DNA from: an uncultured Actinomycetes bacterium
GTDB lineage: Bacteria > Actinomycetota > Actinomycetes > Nanopelagicales > Nanopelagicaceae
Assembly (NCBI GenBank): GCA_903850565.1
Contig: CAINLV010000001.1
Span: 1-64,000, forward strand
DNA length: 64,000 nucleotides
Direction of reading: 5' to 3'
In this document: in pieces, positions 18,501 to 20,700 of the stretch
How positions within the stretch are numbered: the first letter of the stretch is position 1
How the letters are laid out: every line of letters starts with the position of its first letter
Notes under the pieces: model-generated
What the model was told of the DNA's origin: nothing
Seen by the model: the letters and a program-made list of their open reading frames with translations, nothing else
Database searches by the model: none
Translations under genes and position numbers: made by a program

Positions 18501-19127
18501 CTATTTTTCGGGAACCGAATCCGGAGAAATAACAGCCTGAGCAACTTGTTTCATGGTCATCCGACGATCCATGGCCGCTCGCTGAATCCAGCTAAAGGCT
18601 TCCGGTTCGGAGAGGTTGAGCGCCTTCATCAAAATTCCTTTAGCCCGGTCAATGACCTTCCGAGTTTCCAATCGATCGTGGAGGTCGGCAACTTCATCAG
18701 ATAACGCCTTGAGTTGTTGGTGCCGGCTCATGGCGATCTCAATTGCCGGAACTAAATCGGAAATACTAAATGGCTTGACGACATAAGCCATGGCTCCGGC
18801 ATCTCTGGCCCGCTCTACTAATTCGCGTTGGCTAAAGGCAGTCAGCATCAGGACTGGCGCGATGGCGATGATTTCCGCAGCTGCCGAAATGCCATCGAGT
18901 TCTGGCATCTTGACATCCAGAATCGCTAAATCTGGGAGATGTTCTTGTGCAAGTGCAATCGCTTCAATTCCGTTGCTTGCTTGGGCCACTACCTGGTAAC
19001 CGGCTTCGGTTAGCATTTCTACTAGATCCAGTCGGATAATCGCCTCATCTTCGGCAACCAATATTCGACCACGATTTTTTGCGGCAACTGGCATCGATGG
19101 CTTAGGGGAATTCGTCGAACTGACCAT
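18501..19127 (-). CDS. Response regulator with ANTAR RNA-binding output (AmiR/NasT type, PdtaR-like)
   Basis: The 208-residue protein has a receiver domain (about 20-138) with acidic pocket E25/D26, phospho-acceptor D71 in LAILDVKMP, T96 and K118. A short coiled linker leads to an ANTAR domain (about 145-205; RLETRKVIDRAKGILMKA). ANTAR proteins bind paired hairpins in nascent RNA and prevent termination. The usual partner histidine kinase (PdtaS) is not in this window. The ATG lies two bases past the last nucleotide of a tRNA gene, leaving no room for an SD; a second ATG at 19094 also lacks one. Its neighbours gltBD and liv make nitrogen-linked targets plausible, but this is unproven. Confidence 0.93.
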   Translation of the reverse strand: MVSSTNSPKPSMPVAAKNRGRILVAEDEAIIRLDLVEMLTEAGYQVVAQASNGIEAIALAQEHLPDLAILDVKMPELDGISAAAEIIAIAPVLMLTAFSQRELVERARDAGAMAYVVKPFSISDLVPAIEIAMSRHQQLKALSDEVADLHDRLETRKVIDRAKGILMKALNLSEPEAFSWIQRAAMDRRMTMKQVAQAVISPDSVPEK

Positions 19128-19128
19128 G

Positions 19129-19201
19129 TGCCTCGAGTCGGATTTGAACCGACACTGTGCGGATTTTGAGTCCGCCCTCTCTACCGTTGGAGTACCGAGG
19201 C
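19129..19201 (-). tRNA. tRNA with anticodon CAA (Leu), short variable loop
   Basis: Read from 19201 downward, 73 bases fold as a cloverleaf. The acceptor is GCCTCGG / TCGAGGC with A73. The D stem is CTC/GAG, the anticodon stem GCGGA/TCCGC with loop CTCAAAA, and the T stem GTCGG/CCGAC with loop TTCAAAT. Positions 34-36 read CAA, so it decodes UUG as leucine. The variable loop is only five bases (ACAGT), whereas leucine tRNAs normally have a long arm. U8-A14, A15-U48, G18G19 and A73 agree with known leucine identity features. No CCA is encoded. Confidence 0.9.
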
Positions 19202-19257: not shown

Positions 19258-20700
19258 TTATTTTCTGTATGCAACCGCTACTCCTCCGACGGCATCGCCG
19301 ATTCGGTGAACTCGCAAAGCGTTGGTGGAGCCAGGAATTCCTGGTGGTGCACCTGCCACGATCACAACATACTCGCCCAAATTAACTCGATCTGAGGCGA
19401 TCATCATCGAATCCACCTGCTTCACCATTTCATCGGTGTGATCCACGCTCAGCGTGATCATGGACTCAATCCCCCACGAAAGGGCCAATTGGTTATACAC
19501 GGCAATTTCCGGCGTTAAGGCGATGATGGGAATTCGGGAGCGAAGCCGCGACATCCGGCGAGCAGAATCGCCACTTTGAGTGAAGGCAACCAGGAATTTT
19601 GCATCCACAATTTCCGCAACTTCCACGGCGGCCTTTGTAATGGCGCCACCTTTTGTCCGAGGATTGTGCTTTAACGGTGGAATGGCATCCAACATTGCTT
19701 CTTCGGTGCGCTCAATTATTCGCGCCATGGTTTTCACTGCTTCAATTGCGAAATCGCCCACGCTAGTTTCACCAGAGAGCATCAGCGCATCAGCGCCATC
19801 GAGAACGGCATTTGCACAATCTGTGGCCTCTGCTCGCGTTGGCGTGGAATTTGAGATCATGGAATCAAGCATCTGAGTGGCCACGATGACTGGTTTGGCA
19901 TTTTCTCTAGCTAGCACCACGCAGCGCTTTTGAACGAGGGGAACTTCCTCAATCGGAAGTTCTACGCCCAGGTCACCACGGGCAACCATGATTCCATCAA
20001 ATGCGGCAACAATTTCTTCAAGATTTTCAACGGCCTGAGGTTTTTCAATTTTTGCGATGACCGGACGGCGAATGCCTTCTTCATCCATGATCCGATGAAC
20101 ATCGTTAATATCTTTGGCCGAGCGGACGAAAGAGAGCGCAATAAAATCTGCACCAGCATGAAGTCCCCAGCGAAGATCTTCGATATCTTTTTCAGACATA
20201 GCCGGAACTGAGACTGCAACCCCTGGCAAATTGATACCTTTATTATTGGAAACAAAACCGGGTTGGATAACTGTGGTGACGACATCGTTGCCATTGACTT
20301 CAACAACTTCTACCGTGACTTTGCCATCGTCGATAAGAATTCGATCCCCTGGTTTGCAATCTCCAGGCAATCCTTTAAAGGTAGTTCCAACGCGTTCTTT
20401 TGTACCCACTACGTCATCGGTGGTAATTGTAAAAATATCGCCACGGAAAAGTTCATGAGGGCCATCGGCAAAACGAGCCAAACGGATCTTTGGTCCTTGA
20501 AGATCCACCAAGATTGCAACGGGGCGACCCGCTGCCTCGGCGGCAGCGCGAACTAAAGTCAATCGATTGAGATGCTCTTCGTAACCTCCGTGAGAGAGAT
20601 TAAGTCGGGCCATATTCATTCCGGCAGCGATTAGCTCGGTAATCTTTTCGGGAGATTCCACAGCGGGACCCATGGTGCAAACAATTTTTGCTCTACGCAT
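19258..20700 (-). CDS. pyk: Pyruvate kinase
   Basis: Converts phosphoenolpyruvate and ADP to pyruvate and ATP at the end of glycolysis. The 480 residues begin with RRAKIVCTMGPA and contain the ESIxK-type active-site strand (IAKIEKPQAVENL), MVARGDLGVELP, and the ATQMLDSMI-TPTRAE region. The C-terminal regulatory domain is complete. It follows gltD by 11 bp with AGGGG eight bases before the ATG, so it probably shares the gltB-gltD transcript and links carbon flow with glutamate synthesis. Confidence 0.97.
   Translation of the reverse strand: MRRAKIVCTMGPAVESPEKITELIAAGMNMARLNLSHGGYEEHLNRLTLVRAAAEAAGRPVAILVDLQGPKIRLARFADGPHELFRGDIFTITTDDVVGTKERVGTTFKGLPGDCKPGDRILIDDGKVTVEVVEVNGNDVVTTVIQPGFVSNNKGINLPGVAVSVPAMSEKDIEDLRWGLHAGADFIALSFVRSAKDINDVHRIMDEEGIRRPVIAKIEKPQAVENLEEIVAAFDGIMVARGDLGVELPIEEVPLVQKRCVVLARENAKPVIVATQMLDSMISNSTPTRAEATDCANAVLDGADALMLSGETSVGDFAIEAVKTMARIIERTEEAMLDAIPPLKHNPRTKGGAITKAAVEVAEIVDAKFLVAFTQSGDSARRMSRLRSRIPIIALTPEIAVYNQLALSWGIESMITLSVDHTDEMVKQVDSMMIASDRVNLGEYVVIVAGAPPGIPGSTNALRVHRIGDAVGGVAVAYRK

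Follow-up and report, generated by a model that had tools for sequence, protein, structure and literature searches.

In textbook accounts, leucine tRNAs outside animal mitochondria are long-armed. A 2023 review places a long extra arm in every leucine tRNA outside animal mitochondria, and two papers from 2008 include a tree in which leucine tRNAs with short arms are coloured. In E. coli, the leucine synthetase LeuRS needs A73, A15-U48, G18G19, A20a and the contacts between the D and T loops (PMC9976931). The sequence and folding of the variable arm are uncorrelated with leucylation, and tRNA-Leu variants that have lost both the anticodon arm and the variable arm remain active (PMC9976931).

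The window analysed here, a stretch of 64,000 nucleotides from an uncultured member of the Actinomycetes (family Nanopelagicaceae), carries on its minus strand a tRNA gene with a leucine anticodon and a short variable loop, flanked by two protein-coding genes on the same strand:

19129 to 19201, minus strand: tRNA-Leu(CAA) gene of 73 nt with a 5-nt variable loop (ARAGORN, Rfam RF00005, fold, covariation among relatives)
19187 to 19194, minus strand: core U8 A9 C10 U11 C12 C13 A14 A15 (position table)
19180 to 19185, minus strand: leucine-type D loop G18 G19 U20 A20a G21 A22 (sequence, alignment)
19166 to 19168, minus strand: anticodon CAA, positions 34-36, which reads UUG (ARAGORN)
19154 to 19158, minus strand: short variable loop ACAGU, positions 44-48 (alignment, position table)
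19129 to 19129, minus strand: discriminator base A73, chief determinant for leucine (present in all 61 short and all 36 long forms)
18501 to 19127, minus strand: PdtaR-like ANTAR response regulator, the downstream flank (ORF, response-regulator matches, synteny)
19258 to 20700, minus strand: pyruvate kinase, the upstream flank (TIGR01064, 546 bits; synteny)

ARAGORN places a tRNA-Leu(caa) on the minus strand at 19128-19201, and the Rfam tRNA family (RF00005) matches 19129-19201(-) with 55.7 bits (E 2.8e-9, gathering threshold 29). The RNA is predicted to fold into a cloverleaf of -26.6 kcal/mol (z -2.5 against shuffles), with the conserved T loop and the 7/5 acceptor-T stems of a tRNA. The acceptor stem of 7 bp is followed by U8 and A9, and the D stem comprises 3 bp (10-12/23-25) with C13 and A22 unpaired. 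The tRNA also has A14 A15, G18 G19 and A20a, the anticodon loop is CUCAAAA, and no 3' CCA is encoded. Within the core, A9, C12 (paired with G23) and C13 are the marks of the short form, and the variable loop follows the pattern NNAGU usual in that class. The complete set known from E. coli (A73, A14, A15-U48, G18G19 and A20a) is present. In an alignment with 13 relatives, 99.6% of stem cells are paired compared with 87.8% in shuffles, and nine stem pairs carry changes on both sides compared with 4.4 in shuffles, which confirms a real tRNA gene with stem conservation beyond chance. The sequence-only reading had described a CAA tRNA of 73 bases with a five-base variable loop, giving no strand, and had listed U8-A14, A15-U48, G18G19 and A73; ARAGORN, Rfam and the fold agree with this description on the minus strand, and each of the listed features is present.

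The molecule has the CAA anticodon of a leucine isoacceptor, although its 5-nt loop falls short of the variable arm of at least 10 nt that defines a type II (class II) tRNA. It also has neither the long arm nor the G73 of a serine tRNA, carrying A73 instead. SerRS needs both a long arm and G73, and should be excluded from the short form more strongly than from a long-arm tRNA-Leu.

A genome-wide scan of the assembly, which is 94.7% complete, gave 44 candidate tRNA matches, and the 73-nt short form is the sole CAA tRNA found there. The other leucine tRNAs found (CAG, GAG and UAG) are long-armed, all 84-85 nt. No Leu-UAA tRNA was found by the scan of this 94.7%-complete draft, which leaves part of the UUR decoding unaccounted for; a short Leu-UAA occurs in relatives. 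Two degenerate tRNA-like sequences also occur in the genome (L042 103-174 and L041, on contigs C40 and C85), one with a two-base anticodon call and close to tRNA-Lys(UUU), the other a partial match. When the core of the window tRNA is compared with the genome's other tRNAs by structural columns, Leu-UAG ranks first by one position only, the columns being barely informative. Overall, the body of the tRNA resembles Leu-UAG only marginally more than it does other isotypes, and similarity alone assigns no isotype; A15-U48 is present in the Trp, Arg and Asn tRNAs as well. Rankings by plain gapped identity to the other tRNAs proved meaningless and were discarded.

Only 1 nt separates A73 from the first ATG of the PdtaR-like gene (window 19125-19129); the true start of this gene may lie further downstream, and the tRNA and the PdtaR-like gene may be co-transcribed. 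This neighbourhood is shared among relatives, with 84 of 99 short CAA loci lying at most 700 bases from a PdtaR homologue (some genomes counted twice). In class members with the long form (L114, L116, L120, L138-L140), the CAA gene is found at this same place by PdtaR and in the same orientation. Thus, short and long CAA genes are positional counterparts at the slot between the ANTAR response regulator and pyruvate kinase.

The two forms are distinguished by their cores as well as by their arms. All 61 distinct short forms have U8, A9, C12-G23, C13, A14, A22 and A73 in the structural columns, with a variable loop of 5 nt in 59 and of 6 nt in 2, whereas all 36 distinct long forms have G9, G12-C23, A14, A15-U48 and A73, with a variable arm of 13-17 nt. 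Because positions 9, 12, 13, 15, 46-48 and 73 were outside the search pattern, this result was not built in. The core switch (A9/C12-G23 versus G9/G12-C23) tracks arm length, and both forms retain A14, A73 and a pair at 15-48. A15-U48 is found in 59 of the 61 short forms, and in the other two a double change to G15-C48 preserves the pairing. We note that this variant of the leucine identity pair is borne by the short Leu-CAA of L460 and L461, both from genomes of genus g34.

By BLAST, the short CAA tRNA is present in all sampled family members but one; it is identical in five other family genomes and 89-99% identical in the rest. Among 98 genomes of the class, a pattern scan found only the short Leu-CAA in 52 and only the long in 26, with 20 giving no match, the pattern missing genes that lack G52. 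No genome has both, compared with about 17 expected if the two forms were independent. For Leu-UAA the corresponding numbers in the 98 genomes are 52 short, 7 long and none with both. The short form is therefore the commonest CAA form in the sampled class, and the short forms include UAA besides CAA. Within genus g34 (genomes of 7-10 Mb), the short and long CAA states occur in different species.

These counts bear on the possibility that the window gene is a pseudogene, or a decayed or wrongly annotated tRNA, and that the genuine Leu-CAA lies elsewhere. A draft that is 94.7% complete could lack such a second gene. However, the identical copies in five family genomes, the compensatory stem changes and the absence of both forms from any one class genome argue against decay, as do complete genomes, that of Planktophila versatilis among them, in which no CAA tRNA other than the short form occurs; we consider a pseudogene hardly conceivable.

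Extension across the phylum by covariance model and pattern scans gave, in named genomes, at least 80 loci, all called tRNA-Leu with CAA or UAA and all but a few from Actinomycetota. Among the matches listed are the genera Mycobacterium, Streptomyces, Corynebacterium, Rhodococcus, Nocardia, Bifidobacterium and Planktophila, and, outside Actinomycetota, metagenome-assembled genomes labelled Rokubacteria, Deltaproteobacteria and Christensenellaceae together with one unclassified bacterium. The Rokubacteria genome has a Gly-Cys-Leu tRNA cluster with the short Leu-UAA at its end, and a short UAA is found in 5 of 60 genomes of its phylum. The short class is also found on at least 120 viral contig stretches and in named Streptomyces and Synechococcus phages; a BLAST search of plasmids with the tRNA gave no match. 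In Streptomyces phage Alone3 (L263 1610-1684), a tRNA-Leu(tag) of 75 nt adjoins a short Leu(caa), and short-arm leucine tRNAs for CUN codons thus exist in phages too.

Among the window's 1996 leucine codons, UUG is the most frequent, with 514. The window's UvrA and DnaE were aligned to orthologues from 23 genomes that have a long Leu-CAA, and of the 34 conserved columns in which the window has UUG, 32 hold leucine, with the other leucine codons behaving alike. UUG is still read as leucine, and a changed genetic code at this codon is rejected. The Codetta survey found arginine codons to be the only reassigned sense codons in bacteria (PMC8629427). The sequence-only reading had raised the alternative that another synthetase charges the tRNA and alters the meaning of UUG. 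Such charging would suit a short variable loop, which is typical of other isotypes, and a body no less similar to the genome's other tRNAs than to its leucine tRNAs. Against it stand the conserved leucine columns, the Codetta screen with no change of a leucine codon in bacteria (PMC8629427), and the short gene having taken both the slot and the role of the long Leu-CAA; in addition, anticodon-reading synthetases such as MetRS and ValRS would meet a CAA anticodon that lacks their determinants. We regard this alternative as highly improbable.

Phages that integrate at the host gene provide a further line of evidence. Cluster J phages use the tRNA-Leu-CAA gene of M. smegmatis as their attachment site, with a 44-bp core common to host and phage, and the mycobacterial tRNA-Leu is drawn in the phage paper (PMC3706429). 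An uninterrupted 46 nt of the short Mycobacterium Leu-CAA, lacking any long arm, is present in the cluster J attP, and from this and from other mycobacteria we infer that the M. smegmatis host gene is short-armed. Phage Gaia integrates at the host tRNA-Leu-CAA without restoring the host tRNA and brings its own tRNA-Leu(caa), which that paper itself reads as rescuing the cell (PMC10865867). The Gaia tRNA is long-armed, at 83 nt. With the probably short host gene disrupted, a long Leu-CAA thus seems to fulfil the function of a short one in M. smegmatis. A related observation comes from the Mycobacterium abscessus prophage prophiGD02-2 (L261 1-47), whose record opens with 47 nt similar to the 3' portion of a short Leu-CAA, the arrangement that integration into such a gene should produce.

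Taken together, these data make it very probable that the window tRNA is a true LeuRS substrate, which serves as the cell's only CAA leucine tRNA and reads UUG as leucine. The sequence-only reading had considered that the tRNA may genuinely accept leucine despite having no long arm, and this view is supported by the sole CAA isoacceptor found, the phylum-wide conservation, the one-for-one replacement at the same locus, UUG at leucine positions and the Gaia tRNA standing in for the apparently short host tRNA. Its vague memory of a similar short Leu(CAA) in other actinobacteria was correct and understated the case. The inventory of leucine tRNAs that it proposed for the genome and its relatives gave short CAA tRNAs in both, and the normal long-arm Leu-CAA that would have spoken against its view was found neither in the 94.7%-complete genome nor beside a short one in any of the 98 class genomes.

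One LeuRS was found in the genome, split across two contigs of the assembly, and the LeuRS of a family member aligns with a solved bacterial LeuRS as far as the C-terminal domain. This single bacterial LeuRS would recognise the tRNA through A73 together with the leucine-type D arm and elbow (A14, A15-U48, G18G19 and A20a), and none of these elements would require the long variable arm. Upon loss of the arm, the core may have been rebuilt towards the type-I form (A9, C12-G23, C13 and NNAGU), changes which we suggest make up for the lost arm. Short and long tRNAs would then be interchangeable alternatives for one gene. Arm loss might, on the other hand, have left a mixed identity, in which LeuRS charges most of the tRNA and a second synthetase mischarges a fraction, making UUG slightly ambiguous. 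The short body does take away an element that type-I synthetases would not ordinarily encounter, and its core and acceptor positions resemble those of several type-I tRNAs; long persistence across the phylum, however, argues against much ambiguity, as does UUG being the most frequent leucine codon at conserved sites, and we consider a mixed identity very unlikely.

In most sampled class members, the LeuRS profile (TIGR00396) skips about 35 positions (569-605) before KMSKS, a stretch that we take to lie around the leucine-specific domain of LeuRS. As a LeuRS difference tied to the short form this candidate was rejected, the skip being present also in G026, which has a long Leu-CAA. The LeuRS loci examined include L384 and L398 (G000:C41:55511-57781), and the skip does not follow the CAA arm type.

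A broader proposal, which we put forward tentatively and consider possible though doubtful, is that the short-arm Leu(UUR) tRNAs form a distinct, transferable class with its own core, that the long form was replaced in place more than once, and that the class moves among Actinomycetota, some other phyla and phages. The arm loss could also be selectively advantageous, for example by evading nucleases or integrases directed at long-arm leucine tRNAs. The majority of the genomes sampled in a major bacterial class, those of Mycobacterium, Streptomyces, Corynebacterium and Bifidobacterium among them, decode UUG and/or UUA by leucine tRNAs devoid of a long arm, a natural experiment on the E. coli finding that the arm is dispensable for leucine identity. 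The annotation of tRNAs is affected, because the long arm is taken as a sign of leucine identity both by software and in papers, and the short forms also bear on the origin of type-I tRNAs from type-II, on phage-encoded tRNAs and on integration sites. Individual members are known through database annotation as tRNA-Leu; our literature search turned up no paper that treats the short-arm tRNA-Leu(UUR) of actinobacteria as a class, and the statement of the 2023 review is contradicted.

Among known systems, the animal mitochondrial tRNA-Leu(UUR) is likewise a leucine acceptor without a long arm, with A73 and A14 as determinants (PMC9976931), but it is organellar and served by a mitochondrial LeuRS, whereas the tRNA described here is encoded on a bacterial chromosome that keeps long-arm leucine tRNAs for CUN codons. 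The short-arm Leu-UAG of a mycobacterial tRNA gene cluster (PMC6582537) shares the short variable loop and the actinobacterial host, but has another anticodon and is a surplus copy that belongs to an HNH-linked accessory cluster, the normal host copy being long-armed. A tRNA-Met copy with its anticodon changed to CAA also combines CAA with the lack of a long arm, yet is probably inactive, in contrast to the window tRNA, which is old, conserved and the sole CAA tRNA. The bacterial long-arm (type II) tRNA-Leu shares with the short form the anticodon, A73, A14, A15-U48, G18G19, A20a and the 3-bp D stem with A22, as well as the same genomic slot in actinobacteria, and differs in its arm of 13-17 nt, G9 and G12-C23, where the short form has 5 nt, A9 and C12-G23.
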